From Nocardia sp. BSTN01 (GTDB lineage Bacteria > Actinomycetota > Actinomycetes > Mycobacteriales > Mycobacteriaceae), in NCBI RefSeq assembly GCF_015354405.1, contig NZ_JADKYP010000003.1, positions 303,392 through 367,391 on the forward strand: a stretch of DNA of 64,000 nt, in the 5' to 3' direction. The notes under the pieces were generated by a model, which worked only from the letters and a program-made list of their open reading frames with translations, was not told the origin of the DNA and did not search any database. A program made the translations under genes and the position numbers. Below, in pieces: positions 10,383 to 55,512 of the stretch (positions are counted from its first letter, which is position 1; each line of letters begins with the position of its first letter).

Positions 10383-10458
<76 letters not shown>

Positions 10459-10460
10459 TG

Positions 10461-10500
10461 ATACAGCCTCTGACCTGACAAGACAGGTCAGAGGCTGTAT
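10461..10500 (+). terminator. 17-bp hairpin terminator after tRNA-Lys
   Basis: The arm 10461-10477 (ATACAGCCTCTGACCTG) pairs perfectly with 10484-10500 around ACAAGA. Because it lies inside the att boundary, it came with the island; the original chromosomal terminator is probably the one at 20459. Confidence 0.8.
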
Positions 10501-10539
10501 CCGTTTCACCGGACAAATCGGACCGTTCCCAAAAATATC

Positions 10540-10860
10540 CTAAAAAATCTGGGCGCCAACTGCGTTCGTCAGCTGCCCCTGCCGAAACTCAACTCCAGCA
10601 CCGTCGACGGGTCCCGTGGTCTGCTCGGGCGACGCGATGTAGGGCCGCTCCGTGACCCCGTCGCGGGAGTGACCCAACTGCTTCGCGGCTGTCTTCGAAG
10701 CCGACGCCTCGCCAAAATCAGCGTCGCGACCGCCTCCCGGAACATGTACTGCGTCACATTCTTGTACACCGTCCCCCAGGAAGCGCCTCGCGTCCGGTTG
10801 AAGTCGTGCCAAACACGAAGCACTCCGTCCCGGCCCGGAAGGTAGTCACACACACCAGCG
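10540..10860 (-). pseudogene. tyrosine-recombinase (integrase) C-terminal remnant
   Basis: Broken end of a phage- or ICE-type tyrosine recombinase. One frame (about 10853-10710) carries the Arg-II region YMFREAVATLI. The next frame (about 10720-10540) carries the conserved KQLGHSRDGVTERPYIA, which holds the LGHS motif and the presumed catalytic Tyr. The two halves need a frameshift near 10715 to join, and the N-terminal two-thirds of the enzyme is missing. Orientation and position, pointing at the tRNA that carries the att repeat, are typical of an integrase. The island is therefore probably fixed unless a helper acts in trans. Confidence 0.82.
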
Positions 10861-10983
10861 GTACGGCGTAACCTTCAGCTCGGGGGTGGTACGGCCCGCG
10901 CGTCCTCCGGCATCACCTGACCACCGGTAACAGACTCGCATCGCGTGTCGATCACCGAGATAGGAAAGCGGGGGCCGCATTTG

Positions 10984-12555
10984 ATGTCGGAACCAGACGA
11001 CTTCAACCACGCCGAGGGCTGGAATATCGCCATTCCAACCGACGACGACTCCATTACAAGACGTCGTCGCGCGCTCGCCCCGATTCAGATCCTCACGGAC
11101 CTGGAAAGAACCAAGTCCAGCCTCGATGGCGACTTCTGGGTGAACTACGACCTGTTCCGGTTAGCGCTCGCTGTGATCGATCAGGTCGCGCTTGCGATGG
11201 GGCTGTCGTCCGGGAGGACCTGGGACGAGGTCCTCGGCTACGCAACCGAACAGGCTGCCCGGCAGGCGCCGGATGCTGCCCCTGGGGAATGGGCGAAGGT
11301 TGCTGAGCGCGTGGTCGTTTCGCTCGTCACCATCGATGTGGAGGTGGTACGGCATCTCGTGCATACGGCTGAGGGGCCGGCCTGGCGGCAACAGCGCTTT
11401 CGGCTGTTGTACCTGCACCCGGACAGCACCGACGGGCTCGAACATCTGCGCGCGTCCGAACAAGCTATCAATATCTTCGTCGAGGCCCTCGATCTCGACA
11501 TCGAAGCCGCGCAGATCGCGAACGAAGCCCAGATGGCCGCCCTGATCGCACGCGGCGCGGTGGCATCGGCGGTTCAGATCGCACGCGTCGCACGCTACCG
11601 GTCGATCGAATACCAGGAGCGGATCAGGCGCATTGTCGCCGACACCCTCATCGATCCGGACACCCACGATTGGCTCGGCGATGTGCCCGCCTATCTCGAT
11701 GCCGCGCTCGACCATGTCCGGGGCCGCCTCGACGCCGAGACGGCGCTGCTCGAAACCGTGGCCGACCGACGCACCGGGATCACCGATCGGACGCAACTCG
11801 ACGCTCTGAACCGACTGCTCGAAATCCTGCGCGAATGCCGGTACCGGCACAGCGAGTTGCATCGCCATCTCATCGGAGCACGTGGCGCGCTGCGGCAGGC
11901 ATTGGACGACCGCTTCGCGCGTCCACCGCGGCGAACCCATCGCATCGACCTCGGCGCGGACCTGCTTGTGCCATTGCTGGCAGGACCGACGGAGGGAGCC
12001 GCACGTGCCGCGGACCGTCTGCTCGCCGTGGCAGGTGGACTACCTGTTCGATGGTGGCCGTCCCTGACAACTATGACCGATGAGCTGTGCACGCCGCCCC
12101 GGACACCCGAACTGGGTGCGGAATACGAACCGCCCGAGGTCGATTCGGTCGACGCTCCCGAGTGGTGGGACGCCTACGAAGTCGTCGCCGAAGCGCTGCT
12201 GAACGGCCTATCCGAGCCCACACGACTGTCGCAGCTGCTGGCCAGAATCGAACGGACCGCGGAAACCGTTGCCGCCGAATCGGACACCGACGAGGGACAG
12301 CCGCTGGATCCGAGCGTGCTGGCGGCGACCGTCGTCCACGCGGCTCATCATGCTTGGGCTCCGCATTTGGCCGGCAGATCGGCTGGTGACCGGGTGGTGG
12401 TGGCGGTCGCGACCGGAAATACATTGGATTCCACAATGTTTCGCGCCAACGATCTACTCTTGATTCCCGCTGAGTTGAGCGCCGATATAGCCGCTTCCGC
12501 ACCGAAGGCCAAGCGCCCCGACTGGATCGACGATGGGCAGGAGGAAACCGAGTGA
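10984..12555 (+). CDS. jetA: JetA-like (MksF/kleisin-position) Wadjet subunit
   Basis: 523-residue protein, first gene of a four-gene SMC operon. I see no enzymatic motif. The N-terminal third has a winged-helix look (PIQILTDLERTKSSLDGDFW, FRLALAVIDQVALAMG); the middle is helical and rich in Arg/Glu/Ala (residues 160-300), as expected of a kleisin that bridges SMC heads. The assignment rests on operon order, length and its partners: the next genes have KITE-, SMC- and Toprim-type features. ATG at 10984 is preferred; an in-frame TTG lies directly before it and a GTG at 10945. The stop overlaps the GTG of jetB (GTGA), so the subunits are translationally coupled. Sequence similarity to typed JetA families was not recognisable by eye. 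Confidence 0.68.
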   Translation: MSEPDDFNHAEGWNIAIPTDDDSITRRRRALAPIQILTDLERTKSSLDGDFWVNYDLFRLALAVIDQVALAMGLSSGRTWDEVLGYATEQAARQAPDAAPGEWAKVAERVVVSLVTIDVEVVRHLVHTAEGPAWRQQRFRLLYLHPDSTDGLEHLRASEQAINIFVEALDLDIEAAQIANEAQMAALIARGAVASAVQIARVARYRSIEYQERIRRIVADTLIDPDTHDWLGDVPAYLDAALDHVRGRLDAETALLETVADRRTGITDRTQLDALNRLLEILRECRYRHSELHRHLIGARGALRQALDDRFARPPRRTHRIDLGADLLVPLLAGPTEGAARAADRLLAVAGGLPVRWWPSLTTMTDELCTPPRTPELGAEYEPPEVDSVDAPEWWDAYEVVAEALLNGLSEPTRLSQLLARIERTAETVAAESDTDEGQPLDPSVLAATVVHAAHHAWAPHLAGRSAGDRVVVAVATGNTLDSTMFRANDLLLIPAELSADIAASAPKAKRPDWIDDGQEETE

Positions 12556-13286
12556 AGTCCCCGAGTACGCACGAGGATATCGGCCGCTTCCTGGCCTGGG
12601 CGGCCCGTCCGAAGGAGACTCCGGCTCGCAATGAGGAATTGCATCGGCTCGTGCGGAGATACTACGAAGAGCCGGACTTCGCTGCCGCCGTCGACGAGGT
12701 ATTCACCGGCGCAGGACTCGATCTCGATGTCGACGAGCGAGACGGCATCATCGCGACGGCACGCAATCACTCACCGCTGCGATTGACCGTCACCGATGTG
12801 TCGAAACGCGCACCACAACAGCATCGCGCAGTGCTCGGCGCGGTGATCCTGGCAGTGGCGCGAACCGCCTACCCGGATCCGGCCATGCTCGACGACCCCG
12901 ACCGAATCCCGGTGTTCACCACGCAATCAGTCGTCGACACCCTGGATCGGGTAGCCCAATCCCTCGCCGAGAACAGCTCGGACGACAGCGATATCGACGG
13001 CGACCTCATCGAGGCATGGCGACGGTGGACCGATTTGTCGCCCGCTCGCCCGAATGCGCGGCGGCGCTCGACAGGCGATCGTGCCGGTGTTGTCGTCAGA
13101 GTGTGCAAGATTCTCGCCGAGGCGGGCTTTCTGACCGCCAAGGGTGATGCCGATGGCGGTGTCTGGTCGACCCGACCGCGGTTTCGCTACGCGGTCGGCG
13201 CACTGTGCGCCGACTCCGAACTCTTCCGGCTGGTCAACGGCCTAGCCGACCGTGCCGACGACACCAGCGAGGGTGTCCCCGCATGA
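12552..13286 (+). CDS. jetB: JetB-like (MksE/KITE-position) Wadjet subunit
   Basis: 244-residue protein, the size usual for JetB/MksE. The N-terminal half has the repetitive helical look of a winged-helix protein: EELHRLVRRYYEEPDFAAAVDE, then LDVDERDGIIATARNHSPLRL. A central part (AVLGAVILAVARTAYPD) and a C-terminal wing-like region (RVCKILAEAGFLTAKG, then STRPRFRYAVGAL) fit the tandem winged helices of KITE proteins that contact the SMC neck. It starts at GTG overlapping the jetA stop and ends ATGA over the jetC start. The assignment is from size, position and predicted fold only. Confidence 0.68.
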   Translation: MKSPSTHEDIGRFLAWAARPKETPARNEELHRLVRRYYEEPDFAAAVDEVFTGAGLDLDVDERDGIIATARNHSPLRLTVTDVSKRAPQQHRAVLGAVILAVARTAYPDPAMLDDPDRIPVFTTQSVVDTLDRVAQSLAENSSDDSDIDGDLIEAWRRWTDLSPARPNARRRSTGDRAGVVVRVCKILAEAGFLTAKGDADGGVWSTRPRFRYAVGALCADSELFRLVNGLADRADDTSEGVPA

Positions 13287-16200
13287 CCGAATCACTCTTC
13301 GATGCGAATCAAGCCCCCGCCCAGGAACTTCCGACACCCCCACTGCGCCTGCGTCGGGTCCGGCTGCACGGTGTCGGACCCGACGGTGCGCGGTTCGATC
13401 CCCTCGATCTGGATTTCAGCACCGGTTCCGGGGCGGCCGCGCGAGTCCTGTTGTCCCTCACTAATACCGGCGGCAAATCGACGCTAATCACCTTGATCTG
13501 CAGCCTGATCGTGCCCGCTGCACGGGCGCAGGTCGGCGGGAAGATTCTCGGCGACTATGTCCTGACCGGCGACACGTCGCACGTCGTGTGCGAATGGGAA
13601 GACGCCGTCACCGGACACCGCACGGTCACCGGCACGGTGATGGAGTGGAAAGACGGCCGCCGCCAACCGCCCCACAAGATGCGCTCGACTTCCAACATGC
13701 ATCGCGCCTGGTATCTGTTCCGCACCGGGCCGAGCTTGCCGGGCATCGACGACTTGCCGTTCATCTCCGAGGGGCGTCGCATGACATACCGGCATTTCAG
13801 AGCCGCCGTCGACAACCTGATCGCGGAGTCTCCCGATACACACGGAATTCTCGTCGACAAACAACAGGACTGGACGTCGGCGCTGGAACACCACACCAGC
13901 ATCGACCCGGTACTGTTCGGCTACCAGATGCGCATGAACGATTCGGAAACCGGTGCGGAGCAACTACTTCGGTCGTTCGACTCGCCGGACAACGTCGTGC
14001 GATTCTTCGTCGCGGCTTTGAACGACCAGCATGACCTGGAAATCTTCACCGAAAAGCTCGGTGTCTACGCCATTTTGGCGGCCCAACGATCGTCCTTGGA
14101 AAGCCGAGCGAGCTTCGGTGACGCGGTCTTACCGTTGATCGAGCGGGTGGCACGGCTTGCCGAGGATCGCGAGACTACGGAAGGTCGGCTGCTGCAGTCG
14201 ATCACGCTCGGCGGGGAATTTGCAACCTCACTGCTGAACCGCGTCATCCAGGACCAACGCATACTGACCGAACTCGACACCACTGTCACCGCCACAGGTC
14301 GCGCGTTCGCCGATGCCCGCCGCGACTACAACAAGGTAAGCGATATCCGTCAACAGCTGACCCTCGAGCAGGCACGGGCCCGGGTCGTGTCCACCGCACA
14401 GACGGTCGAGAAGACAGAGGAACTCGCAACTGAGGCGGAGAATGCGACGAGCGCGTGGCGGGCGGTCAGCGATGTTCTGGCATTGCGCATCGCACGAGCA
14501 GCCGCCGAAACAGCGCGGCAAGCTTACGAAAAGGCCGACGCGGGTCTGGGGCCGCTGCGCGCCGACGTCATCAGAGCAGCCGCTGTATTGGCGGGCCGAC
14601 TCGACGCACTGATTGCTGAGTCCAAGGCAGAAGCCGACTCTGCCAAAGATCAAGCTGACATCGCGGACAAGATCAAGAAGCAGGCGGAGAAGACGGAAAC
14701 CGACGCCCGCATCTATATCTCAAAACTCACTGACGAGCGCTCTCGCGCCCGAGCGACCATCGAAGCTGCTGCCCAGATCCGTAACGCCGCTGCGGCAGCG
14801 GGCTGGCTGCGTGAGCACGAGAGCCCCAGTGAATGCCAGCGCCGCTGGCAGGAGAGCAGGGCAAAGGCTAAACATGCCGCCGAACTCGCCGCCGAACACG
14901 AGCGAGCCGCCGAGCAGAGATTCGACGAACTCGGTGTGGCCATCGGGAATATGGACCCGAGTCTGATTGACCTTCGTGCACAAGAGCAATCGGCGTCGGG
15001 GAAGTTCAGAGACTTTGTCGCCGACATCGAGGCGGTAGGTGCCGACCCCACCGTCGCAGAACTGGTCGGCGGTGCGGTAGAGGACAGTGAAACACTGACC
15101 CGCATCGCCGGACTCGCTGCCGACGCAGCCCGCTCCGCGGATGCGCGATCTACCGAACACGGCACCGCGGCCGATGCCGCATACCGCCAACTCCAGGTAC
15201 TGGATCTGACCGGTACTGCGCCGACCGGACAGGATGTGCTGGATGTACTCGGGGTGCTTTCCGCTGCCGGAATTGGATCCGTCACCGGGCTGCAATGGAT
15301 CGAGAACAATATCGTCGATGCCGACGCACGTGAACCCTTCATCGCCGCCAATCCGGAGCTCGCGGGCGGGGTCGTAATCTCCGATCAAAACAGATTCGAC
15401 GACGGTGTGCGGCTGCTTCTGGACAGCGAGCTGCACACCAGGACCCCGGTGACCGTCACTACCCCGCCGACCACTGCGAGGACCACGCCGCCGCCGATTC
15501 CGTTCCGCCACATCGTTATTCCACATCGAGCGACCTGGGACAGGCACTGGGCCGCCGAGATGCGGCAAGAACTGGAGGCCGCGGCGCAACAGCACGAGGA
15601 GCAAGCACAGCGCGCGGCCGAAGTCGCGCAACGATACCGCAGGAGTGAGGCGCAGTGCCATGAGTTCACGCGGCGCTGGGGTTCGGCCACACGCGAGGAC
15701 CTGGAAGGAACCGCGCGACGTGTTGCGGAGGCGCTGCACGCAGCGGAAACCGAACTGGCGGACCTGACCCGGGATCGAGTTGAACAGCGGACGCTGGCGG
15801 CCGCCGCCCGAGCTGAACAACGCAAGCAGACGACCGAATCCGGCAAGGCGGATGAACATGAAAAGGCCGCAGCGGATTTGGTAAAGCAGTGGGAACAAGC
15901 CGAACAAGCCGAGGCTACGATACCCAGCATCGACTCGAAGCTCACCCGTGCGAAATCCGATCGCGACGACGCCGCCGCCCGCAAGGAACAGGCCGAGGAG
16001 TCCTACGAGACCGCGATCCAGCAGGCCGCCAACCTCCGTAGTGACTGCGAATCCTTCCGCCGGGAACGAGCCGAACTAGGAGTCGACGAGTCCGGTACCG
16101 ATCCCGGCGGCAACCCCTCGATCCTTCGGACCCGATGGGAGACCCTGCGCGACGAACTGGCAAAAGCCGAATACGGCATGGTCGAAGCCGCCAGACTCGA

Positions 16201-17767
16201 AGACGCCAACAAGGCTGTCAGTCGCGCGGCGAGCCAGGCCGAGCGCCACGACGCCGACGGTCTTCGCCGGGCCGAAAGTCTGTCGGACACAATCGAAGCC
16301 AGTACCCCTACAACTCTCGCCGACGCGCAGCGACGAGCCCAAGCGGATTTCGATCGCGCCCACCGGGCCCGTCTGGAGGCCAAGGCAGCACATGAGAAAG
16401 CGCGCGCCGATCTCACCGCCGCAGAACCGCCGTCACCGGATCACCAGAACTACATCGACCTCGCGTCGACGGAGTGGTCACCAACCTGTCCGGACGACAT
16501 TCCGGGGCTACTCGAGCAGCTCGAGAGCCACAACATCGAGATGCGCACCCGGCGCGACGCGGCCGAAACCGCGCACGAGGAAGCCAAGCAACTGCACGCT
16601 GAGGTCCAGGCGGACATCAACTCGTTCACTCTCACCACCGAAATGTGGGCCGCCGAACGCATTCCGACCGTCACGGTGTTCAACGGGCCAGCCGACTCGG
16701 CCCGCGAGAAGATGCGCGCGCACATCAAAGATCATCAGCATGCAGACCGTGCCGCGCGCGACGCCCGCGACGCGATCCACGCCGCAGTCACCAAGGTTCG
16801 CGCAACAGCCACCGATCCGCGATTCGCCGCTCTGGAAACACCCGACATCATCCGGCTCCGGTCACTACAGGAAGCCGACCTCATCGCCGAGGCAGAGACA
16901 CTGGCCCGCCGAATCCGGACCGTGACCGACTCGGCTCGCGCGGACCTGGAACAGCTCGACGTGCACAGGAGCATCCTCTGTGACGATCTGCTGGCGCTGT
17001 GCCGCACCCAGCGACGCATGCTGCGTGAGGTCTCCCAATCATCGAGACTCCCCGCCGGTCTCGGCGACCTCTCGGACAATCCCGCGATTAAGATCCGATT
17101 CGAGGAGGCCCCCGCCGTCGAGGCGACGGCACGCTTGGCCAGCCGGGTCGACAGCTGGTCGACCGAACTGGCCGACAATCCGAAGAAGGCCAAATCCGCC
17201 GACGTGCGGGCGCGCTGGCTTGCGGACGCCGTACGCGACACGGTGGTCAGTCGATCCCGAGCAGGGGCATGGTCGATCGAGATTCTCAAACCCCGGATTG
17301 ACGGACACGTCGCGTACTGCCCGCCCGACCGGATACCCCACGAGTTCTCGGGCGGCCAAGTGCTCACCCTCGCGGTCCTCGTCTACTGTGCACTGTCGCG
17401 CGTGCGGTCCGCACACCGGCAGGGCGGAGCACGACCCGCCGGAACCTTGTTGCTGGACAACCCGTTCGGCGCGGCGTCGGCCGAACCGCTGATCGAGATG
17501 CAGCACCGGCTCGCCGCCCACACCGGGGTCCAACTCGTCTGCGCGACCGGCCTGCACGATCCTGCGGTCGAAGCCGCGTTTACCGGAGCCGGATCGGTGA
17601 TCGTCAAACTCCGCAATGACGGCGACCTACGACGCAATCTGTCGTTCTTGCGACTCCGGGCGACGATCGCCGACGGCATCGATGTCGTCGAACCGATTGT
17701 GCGAGAACGCGACCCGAAGTCAACCCGGAACTGGGTGGACGCCATCACCTATGAGATCCGCCGATGA
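13283..17767 (+). CDS. jetC: JetC-like SMC ATPase (MksB position)
   Basis: 1494-residue SMC/Rad50-type ATPase. The N-terminal head has a Walker A of the form LTNTGGKSTL (residues 59-68) after a strand reading LRRVRLHGVG. Residues of about 330-1240 are largely Ala/Glu/Arg/Lys heptads, the antiparallel coiled coil, broken near 620-700 by a non-coiled segment that could be the hinge. The C-terminal head has the ABC signature FSGGQ (1355-1359) and a Walker B of LLLDNPFGAAS (D1392), with Asn where most SMC and ABC proteins have the catalytic Glu. In Wadjet this subunit is the motor that extrudes loops of circular DNA. ATG at 13283 overlaps the jetB stop; the stop overlaps the jetD ATG. It is longer than the roughly 1100 residues usual for type I JetC. 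Confidence 0.78.
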   Translation: MTESLFDANQAPAQELPTPPLRLRRVRLHGVGPDGARFDPLDLDFSTGSGAAARVLLSLTNTGGKSTLITLICSLIVPAARAQVGGKILGDYVLTGDTSHVVCEWEDAVTGHRTVTGTVMEWKDGRRQPPHKMRSTSNMHRAWYLFRTGPSLPGIDDLPFISEGRRMTYRHFRAAVDNLIAESPDTHGILVDKQQDWTSALEHHTSIDPVLFGYQMRMNDSETGAEQLLRSFDSPDNVVRFFVAALNDQHDLEIFTEKLGVYAILAAQRSSLESRASFGDAVLPLIERVARLAEDRETTEGRLLQSITLGGEFATSLLNRVIQDQRILTELDTTVTATGRAFADARRDYNKVSDIRQQLTLEQARARVVSTAQTVEKTEELATEAENATSAWRAVSDVLALRIARAAAETARQAYEKADAGLGPLRADVIRAAAVLAGRLDALIAESKAEADSAKDQADIADKIKKQAEKTETDARIYISKLTDERSRARATIEAAAQIRNAAAAAGWLREHESPSECQRRWQESRAKAKHAAELAAEHERAAEQRFDELGVAIGNMDPSLIDLRAQEQSASGKFRDFVADIEAVGADPTVAELVGGAVEDSETLTRIAGLAADAARSADARSTEHGTAADAAYRQLQVLDLTGTAPTGQDVLDVLGVLSAAGIGSVTGLQWIENNIVDADAREPFIAANPELAGGVVISDQNRFDDGVRLLLDSELHTRTPVTVTTPPTTARTTPPPIPFRHIVIPHRATWDRHWAAEMRQELEAAAQQHEEQAQRAAEVAQRYRRSEAQCHEFTRRWGSATREDLEGTARRVAEALHAAETELADLTRDRVEQRTLAAAARAEQRKQTTESGKADEHEKAAADLVKQWEQAEQAEATIPSIDSKLTRAKSDRDDAAARKEQAEESYETAIQQAANLRSDCESFRRERAELGVDESGTDPGGNPSILRTRWETLRDELAKAEYGMVEAARLEDANKAVSRAASQAERHDADGLRRAESLSDTIEASTPTTLADAQRRAQADFDRAHRARLEAKAAHEKARADLTAAEPPSPDHQNYIDLASTEWSPTCPDDIPGLLEQLESHNIEMRTRRDAAETAHEEAKQLHAEVQADINSFTLTTEMWAAERIPTVTVFNGPADSAREKMRAHIKDHQHADRAARDARDAIHAAVTKVRATATDPRFAALETPDIIRLRSLQEADLIAEAETLARRIRTVTDSARADLEQLDVHRSILCDDLLALCRTQRRMLREVSQSSRLPAGLGDLSDNPAIKIRFEEAPAVEATARLASRVDSWSTELADNPKKAKSADVRARWLADAVRDTVVSRSRAGAWSIEILKPRIDGHVAYCPPDRIPHEFSGGQVLTLAVLVYCALSRVRSAHRQGGARPAGTLLLDNPFGAASAEPLIEMQHRLAAHTGVQLVCATGLHDPAVEAAFTGAGSVIVKLRNDGDLRRNLSFLRLRATIADGIDVVEPIVRERDPKSTRNWVDAITYEIRR

Positions 17768-18786
17768 GCGTCCGAGCATCCGAGATCGCTGCGCTGCGCG
17801 CCGCACTGCTCGCCCGGGGCTCCGTTCGCGTGGAACACACCGTACTGTGGCGACTGTGGTGTGCTGCCGCACCCAGACTCGTCGGCAGCCCGCAGCAAAC
17901 CGACGATCTGCACGAGTGCCTGCGAATACTGGCCGACGACAACATGATCGAACTACCTTCCCGGTCGTCGAGACGACCGTGGCCCAGCCATGTCACCGTT
18001 CCTGCCTGCCGCACCGCACCGAAATCCAAACCATGGGTGACGCACGCCTGGCGCGCGGAACTGGGCTGGGCCGCCTCGTTGCGCACGCTGTCGGACGAAC
18101 TCTTCTCCGACCTCGTCGCGATCAATACCTGGCTGGGGCACCACACGAACCAATCGGTCCCACTCGTCCCGGTGCGTTATCGATCCGCCGAAATCCTCGG
18201 CAGGGAAAAGAGACTCGACGAGCTCACCCGCACCACACTATTTGATTCGGGCAGGCTCACCCTGGATCTTCTGGCCTGCACACGCTACCCACCGCCCCTA
18301 CCCGCTGCGGTCGTAGGACGTGGCCCCGACATCCTCATCGTCGAGAACAGCGACACCTACTGGGTTCTCAACGAACTCCTGAGCAACGCCACGAACCACC
18401 CGATCGGCGCCATCGCCTGGGGCAGCGGACGTACGTTTCCCGCCCAGGTCGACTCGCTGCGCGTCGATGTCGCGGGCCGCGGGCCGGTCACCGGAACTGC
18501 CTGGTATTGGGGTGATTTCGATCCACACGGGATCGCGATCGCCGAAGCGGCGGCTCGCGCGTCAACCGCCGTCCCAATCAAACCTGCTACCGGGCTGTGG
18601 TCGGTCATGGCCGACCGTCCCATCCAAGACCGCGACACTGTCGACTGGTCCTACGTGAATGGCGATCGACTCCTCGGATACGAACTGTGGTCACAACTGG
18701 CCCATATCCGCTCGGCGCACGGGCGGATCGCACAAGAAGCCGTACTGGTCACCACGCTGGCGCAATGGGTGAAAGGACTGCGGTGA
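17764..18786 (+). CDS. jetD: JetD-like Toprim nuclease subunit
   Basis: 340-residue protein with the layout of JetD/MksG: an N-terminal DNA-binding arm (residues 1-120) and a C-terminal Toprim domain related to topoisomerase VI-A/Spo11. Toprim landmarks are the Glu in ILIVENSDTYW (E194), a glycine turn (AWGSGRTF) and the DxD in YWGDFDPHGIAIA (D251, D253). In characterised Wadjet systems this subunit cleaves small circular plasmids after loop extrusion by the SMC subunits. It starts at ATG 17764, overlapping the jetC stop, and is the last gene of the operon. The Toprim call is solid; calling the whole operon Wadjet is an inference from this subunit plus the SMC partner. Confidence 0.8.
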   Translation: MSVRASEIAALRAALLARGSVRVEHTVLWRLWCAAAPRLVGSPQQTDDLHECLRILADDNMIELPSRSSRRPWPSHVTVPACRTAPKSKPWVTHAWRAELGWAASLRTLSDELFSDLVAINTWLGHHTNQSVPLVPVRYRSAEILGREKRLDELTRTTLFDSGRLTLDLLACTRYPPPLPAAVVGRGPDILIVENSDTYWVLNELLSNATNHPIGAIAWGSGRTFPAQVDSLRVDVAGRGPVTGTAWYWGDFDPHGIAIAEAAARASTAVPIKPATGLWSVMADRPIQDRDTVDWSYVNGDRLLGYELWSQLAHIRSAHGRIAQEAVLVTTLAQWVKGLR

Positions 18787-18860: not shown

Positions 18861-19430
18861 TTACACGCCACGCATGAGCTCGACCGCTTCGGTCATGGAG
18901 TAGCGCGCTTCGAGAATCGTCAGCAATTCATCCACCGTCTGTCGCGGATTGCGGAACCGGGCACTGATCGTGGCCAGGGCGTGCACAGCGACCTCGGGGT
19001 TGGTTGCCACTGTGTCGGCGGCGAACGCGGCCGGCGTCAGGATCAGGATGTGCTGGGGAACCTTCGCGCGCGGAAAGTCCCTGATGTTGTCGGTGACAAT
19101 CGCCCCGGCTCCCCCGACCACCGCGGCCGCGACCACGTGCTCGTCGTCAGGGTCGGGCAAGCCGAAAGTACCCTCGTGAGGCTCCCAGTTCTCCACGAGG
19201 GCATCTTCGAACATCGAACGCATCTGCTCCACCAAGCGTGAAGCCCGCGCATCAGCACTGGCGCGATTCAAGCCGCGATCAACAAGTTTGGCCGCTTCGT
19301 GATACTCGAGTTCGTCGAGAATTGGTTCGGACCACAACGGCCGATACAGCGCCTCCACCGCCAGGGACAGCAGGAAGTCTCGCTGCAAGCTCGGCCATAG
19401 GACACAAGTATCGAGGACGGCAGTGAACAC
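18861..19430 (-). CDS. PIN-domain ribonuclease toxin (VapC-like)
   Basis: 189-residue PIN-domain protein, probably a Mg-dependent RNase toxin. Acidic residues of the active site are visible in VLDTCVLWP (Asp near residue 7), ILDELEYHE, DPDDEHVVAAAVVGG and VTDNIRDFP. It starts at a GTG at 19430, 12 bases downstream of the antitoxin stop, so the pair is an operon with the antitoxin first. The C-terminal 50 residues (VHALATISARFRNPRQTVDELL) extend past the PIN core. It is convergent with jetD, with only 74 bases between. In an island it may act as an addiction module or as a second defence layer. Confidence 0.85.
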   Translation of the reverse strand: MFTAVLDTCVLWPSLQRDFLLSLAVEALYRPLWSEPILDELEYHEAAKLVDRGLNRASADARASRLVEQMRSMFEDALVENWEPHEGTFGLPDPDDEHVVAAAVVGGAGAIVTDNIRDFPRAKVPQHILILTPAAFAADTVATNPEVAVHALATISARFRNPRQTVDELLTILEARYSMTEAVELMRGV

Positions 19431-19442
19431 GCGACGATTGTG

Positions 19443-19970
19443 TCAGCTCTTGGCTTTTCGACGCGCCGCCACCGTCCGGCGAGCATCCCGCAGACGCCGG
19501 CGCACTACTTCGGGATCCTCGGTGTCGTCGATTTCGACACCGGTCGCGGCCAGAACCTCGTACTGGGCTTCCTTACGTGCCTGTTGATAGATCAGAACAT
19601 CACGCAGTCGCAGGCGCCGCCGGGAGCTCACCCGCTCCGCGGGCAGCTCACCATTCTCGATCAGCTTGACCACGGTCGGGCGGGAGACGCCTAGGATATC
19701 GGCGGCCTGCTGGGTGGTGAGGCTCATGCTGTGCGGAGCGACCGTGACCGCCTTTCCCGCCTGCAAGGCCGCCACGACCTGCACCAACACCTCGTGTATC
19801 TCACGCGGTAGTTCGATGCGCTGTCCACCGCTCGTGCCGACCAATGCGTAGCTCGGCTCGGCTCGAGCACCCCGCCGCCGCTCATGGGCGGTCAGGAAAT
19901 CCAGTACCGGAGCCAGCTGATCCGGTTGCTGCGGCAGATAGGTCCGCTCTTCGATCGCCATCGCGGTCAT
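19443..19970 (-). CDS. excisionase-type HTH antitoxin
   Basis: 175-residue DNA-binding protein. The central region SLTTQQAADILGVSRPTVVKLIENGELP is an excisionase/MerR-type winged helix-turn-helix (about residues 81-110), followed by RRLRLRDVLIYQQARKE. The C-terminus (RRRLRDARRTVAARRKAKS) is very basic. Genes with this HTH directly upstream of a PIN protein are known toxin-antitoxin pairs, and the HTH would let the antitoxin repress its own operon. ATG at 19970 was chosen because GGAGGAG lies five bases before it; the GTG further upstream sits inside that ribosome site. Confidence 0.82.
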   Translation of the reverse strand: MTAMAIEERTYLPQQPDQLAPVLDFLTAHERRRGARAEPSYALVGTSGGQRIELPREIHEVLVQVVAALQAGKAVTVAPHSMSLTTQQAADILGVSRPTVVKLIENGELPAERVSSRRRLRLRDVLIYQQARKEAQYEVLAATGVEIDDTEDPEVVRRRLRDARRTVAARRKAKS

Positions 19971-20397
19971 TGCCACTCCTCCAGCTCAGTGGAACGAAAA
20001 ATAAGCAACCTGTTTCGAATCTTTCGCTCTTCAGCATCGCAGCCGCAGCAGGATTTGACAACACCGAGCTGGTGTGGAAGCTGACACGCGTCGACGCCAT
20101 CCGCGCTCACCAGGCGAAATACGGTGCTGACAGCGACAGGCGGTTCCGGTATCGCCGGAGTGGCGCTCGGCTACGCCAGGCCCCCGACAGATCGCGGAAC
20201 CGGGCGGTGAGCAGGGTCCTAGCACATGGAGGACCCAGACTCGACCCAGCCCGGAACTATCCCAAATTTTCAGGAACACTTCGTGCGATCGTCCGTGCGC
20301 CAGCATGCAGGGTGCAAAGGAACAACCAGCACGTTACTCGACCCCCGAACCCCACACCGTGCGCCAATATCTGCGCACCACAAGCCAATTGACTGGA
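19971..20397. other. non-coding end of the island
   Basis: No ORF here looks real. It holds the promoter side of the antitoxin operon and about 350 bases of filler before the att repeat. A short open stretch on the plus strand (TELVWKLTRVDAIRAHQ) may be a fragment of a lost gene, but I cannot assign it. Confidence 0.5.
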
Positions 20398-20441
20398 ACT
20401 CTTAATCAGCGGGTTCGGGGTTCGAGTCCCTGATGGCGCAC
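20398..20441 (+). repeat. att direct repeat, distal copy (partial tRNA-Lys)
   Basis: Second copy of the 44-bp repeat at 10413-10456: the 3' part of tRNA-Lys from the anticodon arm to the acceptor end, without the 5' half. It cannot make a functional tRNA and marks the far boundary of the island, 9,985 bp from the first copy. Confidence 0.93.
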
Positions 20442-20458
20442 TTAAATTACCAGGTCAG

Positions 20459-20483
20459 AACCGGCATCCAGGCCGGTTTTTTT
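20459..20483 (+). terminator. intrinsic terminator, probable original tRNA-Lys terminator
   Basis: AACCGGC (20459-20465) pairs with GCCGGTT (20472-20478) around ATCCAG, followed by a run of T. It is the only classical T-tract terminator I found in the window and lies 18 bases after the partial tRNA, where the tRNA-Lys terminator would have been before island insertion. Confidence 0.88.
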
Positions 20484-46034: not shown

Positions 46035-49000
46035 CTACTTCTCGGCCTCCCGGTTACCGGCCAGTTCGCCTGTGCCGCAGGAACCGTGGGCCAGATACAG
46101 CCCCTCGGCGCCCAGGCGGGCCTCCGCCGAGAGCAGCACGTCGGCCTCGAGCTGACGGATCTGCTTGGCGGGAGTGCCGTCGCCACCGAGACGGCGGTCG
46201 GCGGGCCGCTCGTAGAGCGGTTCACCACCGCACATGGCCTCGACCAGACGCTGACGGCCGGCGAGCCGCCGTTCCTCGGCGCGGCGCAGGTAGTCGTCGC
46301 GCCGCTGCGGATCGAGCGCCGCGACGAAGGCCTGCGGATGCACGACCGCCAGCAGGCCCGACACGTGCCCGAACCCGAGCGAGGTCACCAGACCGGCCTT
46401 GAGCGCGAACCGATCCCCGAACCGCAGCGGCTGCCGCGGCCACACCAGATGCGGATACTCGGCCATCTTCTCGTCGACGCAATCGAGGCTGCGGTTCGGC
46501 GGAATCACACCCTGCTCCAGCACCTGGCACAGCCCGATCAGCTGGAACGCGGCCGCACCGCCCTTGGCGTGACCGGTCAGCGACTTCTGCGAAATCACGA
46601 ACATCGGTGCGCCTTCGGAACGCCCCAGCGCGCCGGCCAGCCGCTCGTGCAGCTCCGATTCGTTGGGATCGTTGGCTGCGGTGGAGGTGTCGTGCTTGGA
46701 GATCACCGCGATCTCGTCCGGGGTCACCCCGAGCTTGCGCAGGTCGGCGGCCAGCCGCGATTCCGCACCGCCGCGGCCCGCGCCCAGCGCGCCCAGTCCG
46801 GGCGCCGGAATCGAGGTGTGCACGCCGTCGGCGAAGGACTGCGCGAACGCGACCACACCGAGCACCGGCAGGCCGAACTCCGCGGCGATGTCACCGCGGG
46901 CCAGCAGAACCGTTCCACCACCCTGGGATTCGACGAATCCGCCGCGACGCCGGTCGTTGGCCCGGGAGAAGTAGCGGTCGCTGATGCCCTTGGCGCTCAT
47001 GGCCGCCGAATCCGCGGTCGCCGACATGTCACCGAAGCCGACGATGCCCTCGATGCCGAGATCGTCGTAACCACCGGCGACCACGACCTCGGCCTTGCCG
47101 AGACGGATCTTGTCGACACCCTCCTCGACCGACACCGCCGCGGTCGCACACGCCGCGACCGGGTGGATCATGCCGCCGTAGCTGCCGACGTAGGACTGAA
47201 CCACATGCGCCAGTGCGACGTTCGGCAACGCCTCCTGCAGGATGTCGTTGGCCCGCGGCTCACCGAGTAGGTTGTCGATGTAGAGCGAGCGCATCGAGGA
47301 CATGCCGCCCATACCGGTGCCCTGGGTGTTGGTCACCATCGCCGGGTGCACCCAGCTCATCAGCTCGGCGGGGCTGAAGCCGCTGGACAGGAACGCGTCC
47401 ACGGTGCAGACGATGTTCCACAGCGCCACCCGGTCCACCGAACTCGCCATATCCGGCGAGATGCCCCAGCGGGTCGGGTCCCAGCCCTCGGGGATCTGAC
47501 CGCCGACGGTGCGCGACAGCTTCGCCTTGCGCGGCACCCGAATCTCGGTGCCCGCCTGGCGAATCACCTGCCAGTCGCTCGAATCGGCGACGGGGCTGAT
47601 CACGGTGTGCTCGGGGTCGGCGGCGTAGAACGCGCGGGCCTCGGCCTCACTGTTGACCACGAAGCTCAGATCTCGGTCGAGGAAGACCGAGGTGAGCAGC
47701 GGCGCGGCGTTGTCGATCATGGAGCCGTCGTCGCCGTAGCGGCGGATACCGCAGCGCTGCACCACGGCGTCGTGGTAACGCTCGGCCAGCTCCGATTCCT
47801 CGACGTATTCGCCGCTTTCGACGTCGTACCAGCCCGGCTTCGGGTCGTTCTCCCAGGTCACCAGACCGGTGGTCCACGCCAGTTCCAGGACGCCGGCCGC
47901 GGACAGTTCGTCGGCGACCTCCATCTCGAAGCGCGTGCGCGCGGAACCGCAGGGTCCGAGTTCACCGGCGCCGATGATTACGACCATATCGGCGAGATCG
48001 GCGGTGACGGCGCCCCATTCGGGAGTCGGCAGCGCCGAGGTGAGCGTCGGCGGCACCGGCAGCGCGGGGACCGTCGCGCGCTCGTCGTCGGCTACCGCCT
48101 CCGGCTCCCGCTCGACATCGTCGGCCAGCGCGGACAGGTCCAGCTTCGCCCCGGCCAGACCGCCGGTGAGGTCGATCTGCTGCGGACCGGTGGCGGTGAC
48201 GGCGCGAGCCCGCGACGTGCACCACTTGAGCAGTTCGTCGGCCATCTCCTGCGTGGACCAGGTGTGCACGCCGGCCTTCTCCACGGCCGCGACCAGCGGA
48301 TCGTTATGACCCATCAGGCCGGTGCCGCGCACCCAGCCGATCATCGCGTGCACCATGGTGACCCGCTGCGCCCACGACTTCTCCACCCGCCACTTGGCGA
48401 TCACCGCGTCCAGCGCGGCCTTCGACTCGCCGTAGGCGCCGTCGCCGCCGAACATGCCGCGGTTGGGCGAACCCGGAAGCACCACATGCAGTTTCGCGTC
48501 CACGTCGTGGTCGGCGCCGAGGGCGGACAGACCGCCGATCAGGCGCTCCACCGACCACAGCAGGACCCGCATCTCCATTTCGGCGCGCGCCCCGGCATCG
48601 GCCAGATCGCCGGCCACCCGCGGGGCGGCGAACGGCAGCAGCAGCGTCGGGGTCATCGCGGGCTTCACGAGCACCTTCGCGCCACCGGCGTTGTCGGTCT
48701 GCTCGTTGCCGACCCAGTCGATCAGAGCGTCGATATCGGAGTAGGAGGCCATATTCGCCGGCACCACCCACAGCGCGGCTCCCGCGCGAGCGTGCTCGCG
48801 GTAGAGCTGCTTGTAGAAGGCGAGGCGGTCGTCGTCGAGCTTGGACGTGGTGAGGATGACGGTCGCACCCCCGGCGAGCAGCCGGCCCGCGATCGAGGCC
48901 GCGATGGACCCCTTGCTCGCGCCCGTGATCACCGCGGTGTCGGAGGACCAGACACCCTCGTCGGTGCTCAGGGCCGCCTCGGCGATCCGCTCATAGGTAC

Positions 49001-52000
49001 GTGCCAGCACCGAACGCGCCTCGCCCATAGCGAGTTTGCGCCACCACTGCGCCTGTTCCGCAACGGCTTTACCAGCTCCGACGAAGCTGTCGACCGTGTC
49101 CTCGCCCGAGCCACCCAGCCACAGAGTGGCCAGATCCTCGCGGGCGGTGGCCCAGCGGTCGTCGATCAGCACGGCCTTGCGCGCGTCGAAGGCCGGAGCC
49201 ACCAAACGCGGCCAGTCCGAACCCAATTCGGCCGAGACCAGGTCGACCAGCGATTCGTCGCTCGTCTCCGGCGCCGACACCTGATCGGTGAGGCCCAGTT
49301 GCTCGAGCACCACCCGGGCGGCGGTCGCCAGCACACCGTCGCGGCCGGTGATCTGCTCGGTGAATTCACCGAGCGCGGCCGCGTCGACCGTGGCGCCACC
49401 GCCACCACCGGCGGTTGGCAGCGCGACGCTGATTCCGCGACGCGCGGCCACGGCCTGCACGGCAGCGTCGATCGCGGCATCCACCGAAGCGCCGTCGCTC
49501 AACGCCCCGGAGACCAGGCCACCGAGATCCCCGCCGCGCACGCTGGCGCCCTCGCGGGTGCCCAGCGACACCTCGGCGGTGACGTGGTGGGCCCAGCCGT
49601 CGCCGAGCTGCCACACCTTCTTGACCCGATCGGTGATCGCCGCCGGGCGCTTACCCGAGGGACCGAACACCTTGCGCAGGTGGTCGCCGATGGCGTCGGA
49701 CAGCACCGAGCCGAACGGCTTGTAGGTGCGGGCCAGCCGGTCGACGGTGGCCGACAGCGCGCCCATATCGGCATCGGCGGCGCCGTCGATCGCGCCCAGC
49801 GACAGCTCGGAACCGAGGTCGACCAGCAGCTGGTTGCGTCGCGAGGACACACCGTCGCACAGCGCCTCGATGGTGTCCACGGGACCGATCTGGTCCAGCC
49901 GCAGCTTGGTCCACAGCGCGATCAGCACGCGGGTCGCGTCGGCGGCGGTGAAGGTGATGTCGTCGGGGCGGGGACCACCGGAGGCGGCGACCGGAGCCGG
50001 CGCCGGGGCGGCCGCGGCGGCCGTCGCGGCCGGAACCGCGTCGGCCACAGTCTCTTCCGGCTCGTCCACCGGCGCCGGATCGGTATCGGTGGAGTACACC
50101 ACGCCGGCCTCGCGCTCGATGTTGAGCACCTCGACCTTGGTGGCGGCGTACTGCGGCAGCTTCAGGGTGTTGCCCGCCAGATTCGCCACGGTCGGCGTCG
50201 CCGCCAGGCCGATCTCGACGAACCGCTCCACGCCGAGGCCACCGCGTCCGGTGTCGGTGAACAGCAGATCCTGGGTCTCGATCCAGCGCACCGGGCTGGC
50301 GAACTGCCAGGCCAGCAGCTCGATCAGCACCACCCGGCACAGTTCCTCCGGACGCGCGGCCCACGACTCGAAGTCGTCGAGCACCGAGTTCAGCGGCTCC
50401 GACGGCACATAGCCGGCGATCTCGGCGATGAAATCGCGCTCCAGCGAGAACGGCCGCGGCACCAGGTTCGGAATGTAGCGTCCGGCAAGGACTTCCGGAT
50501 GCAGATTCTCCGGCAGCAGGTCCTCGAGCTTGTTGCGGAACTCCGGCACACCCTTGCGCAGCACCGTCGAGTGGAACGGCACGTCGATACCCGGCACCAG
50601 CACGAAGGCGCGCTTGCCGCCGAATTCGGCACGGCGACGCTCGATTTCGGCTTCCAGCTCCTCGAGCCCGGCGACCGTACCCGCGATCGCGTACTGCGAA
50701 CCGCGCAGGTTCAGGTTCACCACCTCGAGGAATTCCCCGGCGCGCTCGCCGACACCGGCGACGAAGTCGATCACCTCGGCGTCGGGCAGCCCGATCTGCG
50801 ACGGACGGATGGCGGCCATCCGATAGTCACTGCGGCCCTGCGCATCCCGGGGCACCAGCTCGTGCATGGCCGAGCCGCGCTGGAACACGACCTCGAGCAC
50901 GGCTTCCAGCGGAAGCACACCGGCCACCGCGGCCAGCGCGTTGTACTCACCGACGGAGTGACCCGCCAGCATCGCGCCCTCGACGAACGCACCGGCCTCA
51001 CGCAGTTCGGCGACCTGGGCCACACCGAGGGTGGCCATCGCGACCTGCGTGAACTGGGTCAGATGCAGAACACCCTGCGGGTGGCGGTATTCCACGCCGC
51101 GGGCCTTCAGATAGGTCGGGTTGTCGCGCACCACGGCGAGGATCGAGAAGCCCAGGGCTTCCCGGGTGTGCTTGTCGGCGCGATCCCACACCTGCTTGGC
51201 CGCCTTCGACCGCGACCGGGCGTCCAGTCCCATCCCCTTGGTCTGGATGCCCTGACCGGGGAAGGCGTAGACGGTCTTGGGGGCCGCGAGCCGGGCGGTC
51301 GCGGTCATCACCAGGTCACCGCCGGTCCGGCAGGACACCTCGACGATCTCGCAGCCGCGGTCGACGGCGATCCGCTCGACGCGCACATCGATCTGCGCAC
51401 CCGGCCGGACCATGCCGAGGAAACGGGTGGTCCAAGCGGTGACAGTGCGTGCGGGCAGCGGAGATTCGGGATCCACCGCCGAGACCGCGTGCTGGGCCGC
51501 GGCCGACAGCCACATGCCGTGCACGATCGGGCTGCCCAGGCCCGCGAGTTTGGCGGCGGCATCGCTGGTGTGGATCGGGTTGTGGTCGCCGGAGACTTCG
51601 GCGAAGGCGGCCATGGCCCGCGGCGCGGTGAGCGTGACGTCGCGACGGCGGCGGCGCGGGGTTTCGGTCGCCTCCTCGGACACGGTCCCGGCCGCGCGGG
51701 GCGGATCGGTGAGCTCGCCGGAGCCGTTGCGACCACGAATCGCGAAGCGTTCCACCAGCGTTGCGACGGTCGGGGTCTCCAGACCGTGATCGCGCATGAC
51801 GCCGACGGTGACCCGTACCTCGACGACGCGGCCCAGGTCGGTGTCGATCACCGACGCGGATTCCGCGCGCACGCTGAGCACGGCCGGATCGCTGGGCAGT
51901 TCGCGCACCAGGTCGACCTGGTGGTCCAGGTGCACCAGATCCAGCATGCCCTCGATAACACTGCTGACGCTTCCGTTTTCGCCCTCGGCACGGCTCGCGC

Positions 52001-55000
52001 CGAGCACGGCGAAGACAGCCGGCCAGCAGGCACCGACGAGCACGTCGGGTACCCGGCGGCCGATGGTGCTGAGGCCCTCCGGCAGACCCGAGCCGGTCAC
52101 ACCGGCGTGGTCGGCGACCATATCGGGCGTCCACGCCAGATTCACATGCGCGACATGAGTTCCGTTGGCGGACTTGATCTCCGGCAGCGCCTGCCCGGCG
52201 GCCACGGCCAGCAGGGCCGACATCGCGGTCTCGGCGTCGGCTTCGGTCACCACCGGGGCGCCACCGTTGTAGACCGAGCCCGGCACGGTGATGCGGATCC
52301 GAACCTCGTTCGCGGGCGACAGCGGGACCGTCAGTTCGACGTAGGCGTTGTCGGCGTCCGGTCCGGTCGCGGGAACCAGTGTGGCGCCGGTCGGCCGGTG
52401 CAGCGCGCCCTGGGTGTCGACGGTCCACTCGTGCAGCTCGCCGAGCCGGTGCACCGGGTTGGTGGTGGTGCGTCCGGCCCACTGCACGTCGGGCGCGGCC
52501 AACACGATATCGATGGCGCCCGAACCGATGTCGGCCCGGCGGCGGCCGTCGACGGCGGCGGGGGTGACGCCGCCGCGGATCAGCGTATAGGCGGTGTCCT
52601 GTTCGAAACGGTCGAGCAGTTCACCGACCGGCTCGTCGACGCGGGTGATGCCGGCGACCGACACCGTTCCGGGGATCACGCACACCTGGTCGGCGGTGTA
52701 GCGCGGGTCGTGGGCCTGCCACAGCGAGTCCGAGCGCCACCAGCGGCGCACATCGGCATCGACGACCGGCACGAAGTTGACCGGCTTGCCGGGGGTCTTG
52801 CACAGCGAGACGAAGAACGGCGCATCGGCCGGGTGCAGGACGGTCTCGGCGGCGGCCGGGTACTGCTCCTTCAGCGTGCAGATCACGTGGACCGGGCGCT
52901 CGAAGATGCTGTCGTCGTCGAACAGGGTCGGGATGCGGCCGCGGTCGGCGGGGTTGAGGCGGCCCTCGACGCGGCGCACCATCTCGGCGAACCGATCCCG
53001 CCAGGTGATGTCGGCCCACACCGAGCGAGTGGCGTCGGCGATGGCGTCACCGAGGTCGGTGCCGCAGTCGAAGCCGTCGCGACCGGCGCGCGGATGTTCC
53101 GGCAGCAGTGCGGCCAGTTCCACATAGCGTTCCAGCCAGCGCAGGTAGGTCATGGTCGCGACGTCGCCGAAGTACGGCTTGGCGGTGTGATCGAGCGCCT
53201 CGATGATCTCGTCGCGGCGCGCGGCCACGGCCTCGGCGTCGCCCGCGACCTCGTCGAGCAGGCGGCCGGTGCGCGAGGCGGAGTTGTCGATCTCGTGGAT
53301 GTCGGCGCCCAATTGGCTACGGCCGGAAGCCATTCCACCGGTCGCGGTCCCGGCGGCGACCCAGTCGGGGGTACCGGGGGTGTCGACCAGCAGCTGCTTG
53401 ACCTCGGGTGCGGTGGTGGCCTCCAGGGTGGCCATGGCCGCGGTGCCGACCAGCACGCCGTCCAGCGGCATCTTCGGGTAGCCATGGGAGACCGACCATT
53501 CGCCGGTCAGGTATTCGGTGGCCCGCTCCGGGGTGCCGATGCCGCCGCCGACGCAGACCACGACATTCTCGCGGTTGCGCAGTTCGGCGTAGGTCTCGAG
53601 CAGCAGGTCGTCGAGGTCCTCCCAGGAGTGGTGACCACCCGCGCGGCCGCCCTCGATGTGCATGATCACCGGGTAGTCCGGCACCTCGTCGGCGATGCGC
53701 AGCACCGCGCGGATCTGCGCGACGGTGCCGGGCTTGAACGCGACGTGAGCGATACCGGCCTCGGTCAGCTCGGCGATCAGCGCCACGGCCTCGTCGAGTT
53801 CGGGGATGCCGGCGGTCACGACCACACCGTCGAACGGGGCGCCGGCCGTGCGCGAGCGCTGCACCAGTCGCTTACCGCCCAGCTGCAACTTCCACAGGTA
53901 CGGGTCGAGGAACAGCGAGTTGAACTGCACGGCCCGGCCCGGCTGCAGCAGGGTCTTCAGCTCGGCGACCCGATCGGCGAAGATCTGCTCGGTCACCTGA
54001 CCGCCACCGGCCAGCTCGGCCCAGTGGCCCGCATTCGCCGCGGCGGCAACGATTTTCGCGTCGACCGTGGTCGGGGTCATACCGGCCAGCAGGATCGGCG
54101 ACCGGCCGGTCAGGCGGGTGAACGAGGTTTCGACCACGATGCGGCCGTTGGGAAGTCGAATCGGCTTGGGCGCGAAGGCTTCCCACGCCGGTGCGACCTG
54201 CGGGGCCGCGCCGGGGGTGAAGAGGCTGCGCTGTCCGGGGCGGGTGGCGGCCGCGACGATGCCGACGCCCGTACCCTTGAGCGAGCCCTGGGTCAGACGG
54301 CTCAGCAGATCACCGGGGCCGATATCCAGAATCCATTGGGCCCCACCGGAAACGGTGTCGTCGACCGCCTGCACCCAGTCCACCGGGTCGACCAGAATGC
54401 TGCGGGCCAGCTGCGCGGCGAGGTCGGTGTCGATCTCACACTGTGCGGCCCACGTCGACACCAGCTCGACGGTCTCGGTCAGCGCGGGGTGATGGAACGC
54501 GACCTCTACCTGGACGTCCTCGAAGACCGGGGCGAACACCGCGCCACCGCGCTTCTTGGCGTCACGATCGCGGCTCTGTTCGGCGTTGATCTCGGCGCAG
54601 CGCTGCCGCACCCGTTCCAGCTGCGCCACGGCGCCGGACAGGACCGCGCGCCGGCGGCCGTTACGAATCGACACCACCGCGGCGACATTCGGATCCACGC
54701 CCTCCGACACCTCGGCCACGACCGCGCGCAGCTCGTCGGGGTCGACATTGGACACCGCGACCATCGGCGATTTGTCGCCGACCGGAATGAGACCGCGCCG
54801 GCGTGCGACCAGTGTGGCCGCCGCGCCGATCAATTGGGCCAGCGCGAGCAGTTCCGCGTCGCGCGCACCGTGCGCGGTCGCGGCCTCGGCGGCGAGCAGT
54901 CCCTGGGAATGGCCGACGATGCCGGTCGGCGCGTGCTCGGCCGGATCCAGCCCCTGCATCCGCAGTGCCCGCAGCGCGGCGACCTGTGCGAGGAAGACAC

Positions 55001-55385: not shown

Positions 55386-55455
55386 GACGTATCGACTTCC
55401 TTCTCGTGGCGGCCCGCCCCGCGGGGCCCGCTCTTGCGTGCACAGGCGTCCCTCA

Positions 55456-55512
55456 CCCCTGAGGACCTGACGAAGCCTCAGGTTCGCACAAAATCATGAG
55501 GAAAGCCTCACG
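55456..55512 (-). promoter_or_regulatory. paired dyads upstream of fas
   Basis: CCTGAGG (55458-55464) and CCTCAGG (55476-55482) form a dyad with 11-bp spacing; TGAGG-AAAG-CCTCA (55497-55510) is a second dyad with the same half-site. They lie 73-125 bp before the fas start codon and may be operators for a fas regulator. In M. tuberculosis the TetR protein FasR regulates fas; whether these are its sites is not known. Confidence 0.5.

Follow-up and report, generated by a model that had tools for sequence, protein, structure and literature searches.

The jetABCD locus of Nocardia sp. BSTN01, which lies in the 64,000-nucleotide stretch of DNA analysed here (the window), is very probably a complete Wadjet type III operon, carried as the main cargo of a genomic island that lies at a tRNA-Lys gene and has since been stripped of most of its integrase. 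The available passages of one source (PMC12647877) describe Wadjet as a plasmid-cutting extruder that occurs in three types. The four genes share the plus strand between 10984 and 18786 and each overlaps its neighbour by 4 bp in the list of open reading frames. The first, jetA (10984-12555, +; 523 residues from the ATG at 10984, with the mechanical frame starting at 10945), encodes a type III kleisin of the MukF/JetA-like kind, and jetB (12552-13286, +; 244 residues, GTG start) a MukE/JetB-like KITE protein. They are followed by jetC (13283-17767, +; 1494 residues, mechanical frame starting at 13205), encoding the type III SMC ATPase, and jetD (17764-18786, +; 340 residues), encoding a Toprim nuclease with E194, D251 and D253. 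The first-pass annotation, made from the letters of the window, had given the coordinates, lengths and overlaps of the four genes and their Wadjet-like (JetABCD) label correctly, and the JetD layout that it described is present as E194 and GDFDPHG (residues 250-256).

Three of the four proteins carry the assignment to type III, scoring 260-516 bits over nearly their whole length against the PADLOC profiles of that type: JetA against JetA3 (PDLC00567, E 4.5e-94, residues 20-505), JetC against JetC3 (PDLC00588, E 8.4e-155, residues 23-1469 on positions 4-1454 of 1484) and JetD against JetD3 (PDLC00594, E 1.1e-77). No JetC1 match of JetC is listed among the PADLOC results, and JetD reaches only E 5.5e-5 with the best JetD1 profile and E 0.06 with the JetD2 profile. 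JetB matches JetB3 weakly (E 0.0022), and the best single JetB3 model recognizes 8 of 52 JetB proteins (that of the window and 51 relatives) at E 0.01. In Pfam, JetD stands barely above the cut-off of JetD_C (22.9 against 22 bits) and none of 49 sequences was matched in a search with JetA and its relatives, while a sequence search of solved structures at E 1 found no counterpart of either JetC or JetD. The JetB model has Wadjet JetB chains as its two best structural matches, and Foldseek gave MukE as the best match of the JetB model and MukF as that of the JetA model, where unrelated helices score close behind. The guess that JetA and JetB would be kleisin and KITE proteins thus agrees clearly with the predicted structure for JetB and less so for JetA. 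The first-pass annotation was also right that the SMC, at 1494 residues, is longer than that of type I, and by profile length (1484 positions for type III, 1123 for type I) this contrast is a trait of type III and not a peculiarity of the locus. Wadjet-III resembles Wadjet-II in the excerpts available from PMC12647877, with no hinge channel and coiled coils that tend to be longer, save for a few Wadjet-III exceptions. In contrast, its statement that JetA had no match among the typed families was wrong, given the JetA3 match; for JetB it was partly right, in that a match exists and is weak. Its suggestion of a new subtype, which on its own terms strong matches to a described type would refute, is not supported, as three of the four proteins match type III strongly. 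Judged by these profiles, the locus is a divergent but otherwise ordinary type III Wadjet.

The same four genes recur well beyond the window. A scan of 84,980 genomes, one per species, yielded 95 places with a JetC relative, of which the best 80 were kept, representing 69 distinct loci, and profiles iterated from the window proteins (plus strand, E 1e-4) then found JetA in 57, JetB in 58, JetC in all 69 and JetD in 60 of these. All four genes lie on the same strand in 49 loci, and the arrangement is not due to chance, because the order A-B-C-D holds in every one of these 49. The other 20 loci leave at least one gene unmatched; some of them end at a contig edge (for example L017-L019), and five (L024, L027, L048, L049 and L077) show no JetD match on the plus strand though the DNA continues beyond jetC. 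The closest relative bearing the operon is Nocardia stercoris (L013/L008), with amino-acid identities of 89% for JetA, 87% for JetB, 82% for JetC and 88% for JetD. A quick tree of the JetC head was built from 54 rows, after removal of four near-duplicates, of 12 rows in which head columns were too few and of every profile-found row. This tree, which included no rows of type I or II and gave long-branch warnings, groups the window and N. stercoris with Paractinoplanes, Frankia, Mycolicibacterium and two Amycolatopsis; the clade is well supported and its stem is long. A JetD profile matched 14 of 149 genomes of the genus, the window's own included, ten of them above 140 bits and four at only 19.7-23.2 bits, and the distribution is therefore patchy. 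Among plasmids, the window JetC has matches in six records, none of which extends over 80% of the protein. Type III JetC homologues also turned up on an IncFIB Salmonella plasmid, whose record shows the gene split, and in Escherichia coli, in a record classed as a plasmid of 4.9 Mb (L136, L142). A phage origin was considered and rejected, there being no JetC match in phages at E 1e-5; of the 43 pattern matches from a scan of viral contigs, not one was confirmed as a relative. In one genus (g27), 10 of the 11 matching genomes show a break in the match to the type III JetC profile near position 592, inside a single frame (L083-L092, L100-L108, L110), which suggests an insertion there.

The operon sits in a tRNA-integrated genomic island, for which the tRNA gene, its duplicated 3' end and an empty site in a relative were all found. 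The insertion target is a tRNA-Lys gene (anticodon ctt; 10383-10458, +; ARAGORN), the 3' part of which forms the left copy of a 44-bp, att-like direct repeat (10413-10456, +) that is 100% identical to the right copy (20398-20441, +), as found by a repeat search. In the relative with the empty site (G002), the part that corresponds to the window as far as 10456 directly adjoins the part that corresponds to 20398-20459. The island measures 9,985 bp from repeat start to repeat start, and jetABCD is its main cargo. Just inside the left end lies the remnant of a tyrosine integrase (10572-10841, -; tblastn), which keeps the C-terminal 90 or so of 505-510 residues. Its identity was established through intact relatives, two open reading frames of 505 and 510 residues in other genomes of the genus (L166, L164; Phage_integrase, PF00589), to which it is 46% and 44% identical (E 5.8e-17 and 1.0e-15; tblastn with 10457-10983); Pfam found nothing in the two frames of the remnant, and PHROGs gave E 0.083 at best. 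The profile searches named no complete integrase in the island, where the only other genes beside jetABCD are two that converge with jetD (18861-19976). One encodes a PIN-domain protein, toxin-like by domain (18861-19430, -; Pfam PIN_3 3.3e-11; NF046100 110.5 bits against a cut-off of 170), and the other an HTH/excisionase-type DNA-binding protein, antitoxin-like by position (19443-19976, -; HTH_17 2.3e-12; TIGR01764 above cut-off; phrog_2907 excisionase 8.4e-9); from their domain content they may form a toxin-antitoxin-like pair.

The complete tRNA-Lys gene of N. stercoris (G006) occupies C34:246767-246840, and its 3' end recurs at 201803-201837 (35 bp, 100%) and 176689-176732 (44 bp, 93%). 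Since jetD of this species (207590-208612) lies between the tRNA-Lys gene and the nearer copy, the operon is hosted by the same tRNA in both species, although the stretch so bounded spans 45 kb in N. stercoris against 10 kb in the window. The two copies, at 45 kb and 70 kb from the tRNA gene (L160, L153, L159; G006:C34:176689-246840), suggest two islands in tandem at this tRNA; genes for an N6 DNA methylase and a Ser/Thr kinase lie in the nearer segment. An open reading frame beside the tRNA gene (L160:17294-18691) is 26% identical to two annotated site-specific integrases; it gave no match in Pfam and no likeness to the window's integrase remnant by BLASTP. A tblastx comparison of the left end of the window with L160 returned scattered short pieces, which we read as chance.

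The point most worth following at this locus is the Walker B motif of JetC. Walker A reads NTGGKS (residues 61-66; 13463-13480, +), and in an alignment of 103 JetC rows, counting those with a letter at the position, its lysine (K65) is kept in 78 of 79, the signature serine in 84 of 86 and the Walker B aspartate in 85 of 85. The residue after that aspartate, normally the catalytic glutamate, is however asparagine in all 85 type III rows, and in the window it is Asn1393 of LLLDNP (residues 1389-1394; 17447-17464, +). These rows comprise 65 of 65 from the pattern scan (64 loci and the window) and 20 of 20 found by profile, the rows without a letter, and hence uncounted, being 5 of 70 and 13 of 33, the latter fragments. 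The pattern-scan set is biased, its search pattern having contained LDNP, but 11 of its 65 rows fall outside that pattern and read D-N there too; clustering at 70% identity reduces the 20 profile-found rows to 9 groups, a single one of which holds 11 rows, and the samples overlap in part, some profile-found rows being genomes also in the pattern-scan set. Asparagine likewise occupies the position in 64 of 64 rows longer than 1300 residues, six of them of plasmid origin, and in all eight plasmid loci read, from Actinomycetota, Pseudomonadota and Bacillota; tblastn had named ten records, of which two from Streptomyces (H6/H13, H8/H12) were left out, and two of the eight (H1, H9) were matched at the N-terminal head alone. 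By contrast, Walker B is D-E in 6 of 6 type I and 8 of 8 type II loci, read by pattern rather than alignment and within a single order. A spurious second match was dropped in L111, and another in L140, one of the plasmid loci. Type III has also lost the D-loop aspartate, whose position was judged by eye against the type II register and is filled by Asn in 32, Ser in 31 and Thr in 2 of 65 rows. Two other acidic residues of JetC are invariant or nearly so, E222 (64 of 64) and E104 (63 of 64). E104 was tried as the alternative base and set aside, as the profile alignment places a glutamate there in type II too and the residue may be structural; for the same reason E222 would be the better candidate. 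In JetD, the residues E194, D251, D253 and E325 are present in 58 of 58 rows. The asparagine may already be known in print, although we found no description of it in the literature searched on Wadjet with Walker B or type III, which included few subscription papers and preprints.

By analogy with types I and II, the operon would most likely serve to restrict small DNA circles, through extrusion followed by cleavage by JetD. If the operon is expressed, a JetABC dimer, made of the SMC protein JetC, the kleisin JetA and the KITE protein JetB, would load onto DNA, and the ATPase cycle of JetC would then reel in a small circular molecule. This would activate the Toprim nuclease JetD, which would cut the reeled-in circle. 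We further propose that the operon came in as cargo of the tRNA-Lys-targeted island and that most of the integrase was lost afterwards. The original Wadjet study reportedly tested several types in B. subtilis.

Among other readings of the locus, a Wadjet subtype outside types I-III would fit the poor recognition of JetB by PADLOC and the placement of the window in a clade of seven JetC head rows with SH-aLRT support of 99 and a stem of 1.53 changes per column. We consider it highly improbable in view of the type III scores of JetA, JetC and JetD, of the detection of JetA-D by iterated window profiles in loci from several phyla and of the DNP Walker B motif shared with Bacillota and Pseudomonadota, and the tree that favours it carries the long-branch warnings and the lack of type I and II rows noted above. 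That the locus is decayed or silent and lacks a function is scarcely credible, for although the island integrase is merely a remnant, the operon itself retains four open frames with 4-bp overlaps, amino-acid identities to N. stercoris of 82-89% across the four proteins and an intact set of JetD catalytic residues.

A more serious challenge to the extrusion model concerns the motor. That the Walker B glutamate matters is indicated by the type II SMC MksB, where the E1042Q mutant is ATPase-impaired according to the part of PMC10123090 available, and by the remark, in the available part of PMC10586767, that Lamassu LmuB generally has Gln for Glu in Walker B and may hydrolyse little. In the single test of a native type III operon that we found, its deletion in Cupriavidus necator H16 left both electroporation and the stability of one plasmid unchanged, as given in the portion of PMC12645576 at hand, and because of this null result together with the Walker B asparagine a hydrolysis-poor or differently working type III has to be reckoned with. 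We think it possible, if rather unlikely, that the type III SMC, with asparagine for glutamate throughout and the D-loop aspartate gone, relies on another general base, perhaps E222, or acts as an ATP-binding clamp and not as a processive extruder, and if this is true type III would work by another mechanism than types I and II do. The narrower proposal that JetC is a hydrolysis-poor ATP switch, in which ATP binding clamps DNA and licenses JetD, draws on the same asparagine in every readable type III row, where types I and II have glutamate, on LmuB, on E1042Q and on the C. necator deletion. We regard it as doubtful, in that type III keeps the kleisin and KITE partners that accompany loop-extruding SMC proteins (PMC10586767, in the passages available), that an invariant acid such as E222, or the nearly invariant E104, could serve as the base and that the C. 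necator study covered few plasmids. Extrusion followed by JetD cleavage remains our preferred model, and the Walker B change, found in every type III copy read, allows it to be tested whether all Wadjet SMC proteins are hydrolysing extruders.

The locus gives an example of type III travelling in Nocardia on a compact tRNA island that has the operon as its main cargo. As the PADLOC profiles used recognize JetB poorly among the window's relatives, and the PADLOC definition of Wadjet requires all four genes (PMC9252829, available text), such type III systems are probably under-counted. The host genome (7.79 Mb, 206 contigs) also carries two type II JetC genes, at C121:99384-103337 (L117) and C163:178641-182711, which score 1065.8 and 763 bits against TIGR02680 (cut-off 462.85) and bring its Wadjet SMC genes to three, one of type III and two of type II; the one type I JetC profile tried (PDLC00512) had no match in the genome. 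Elsewhere in the window, at 46035-55499, two very long open reading frames (3116 and 2717 residues) overlap on opposite strands, of which probably only one is a real gene.

Compared with named systems, the window operon resembles MukBEF in that Foldseek ranks MukE first for its JetB model and MukF first for its JetA model, yet MukBEF lacks the JetD/MksG nuclease, unlike Wadjet, according to the available text of PMC7617805. A locus on a Pontibacillus plasmid (L137, 2065-11052) has JetD first, behind a MerR-type gene, unlike the A-B-C-D order of the window. After JetD come two smaller genes and then a jetC-like gene, the A and B roles being assigned there by position only; in Neobacillus (L080, 3236-10336), too, a JetD match lies upstream of JetC. 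Wadjet type I, as in the JetABCD systems of E. coli and Pseudomonas, follows the same four-subunit logic and has a JetB fold like that of the window, but its JetC profile of 1123 positions and D-E Walker B are unlike the window JetC. Wadjet type II (TIGR02680) likewise combines an SMC with JetD; the window JetD touches TIGR02679 weakly, below threshold (13.6 bits against a cut-off of 196), whereas the type II Walker B is D-E and the window JetC has no TIGR02680 match. The closest counterpart is PADLOC type III, with which the window shares near-full-length matches of JetA, JetC and JetD, the long SMC (1484-position profile) and the DNP Walker B, and from which it differs by its weakly recognized JetB.

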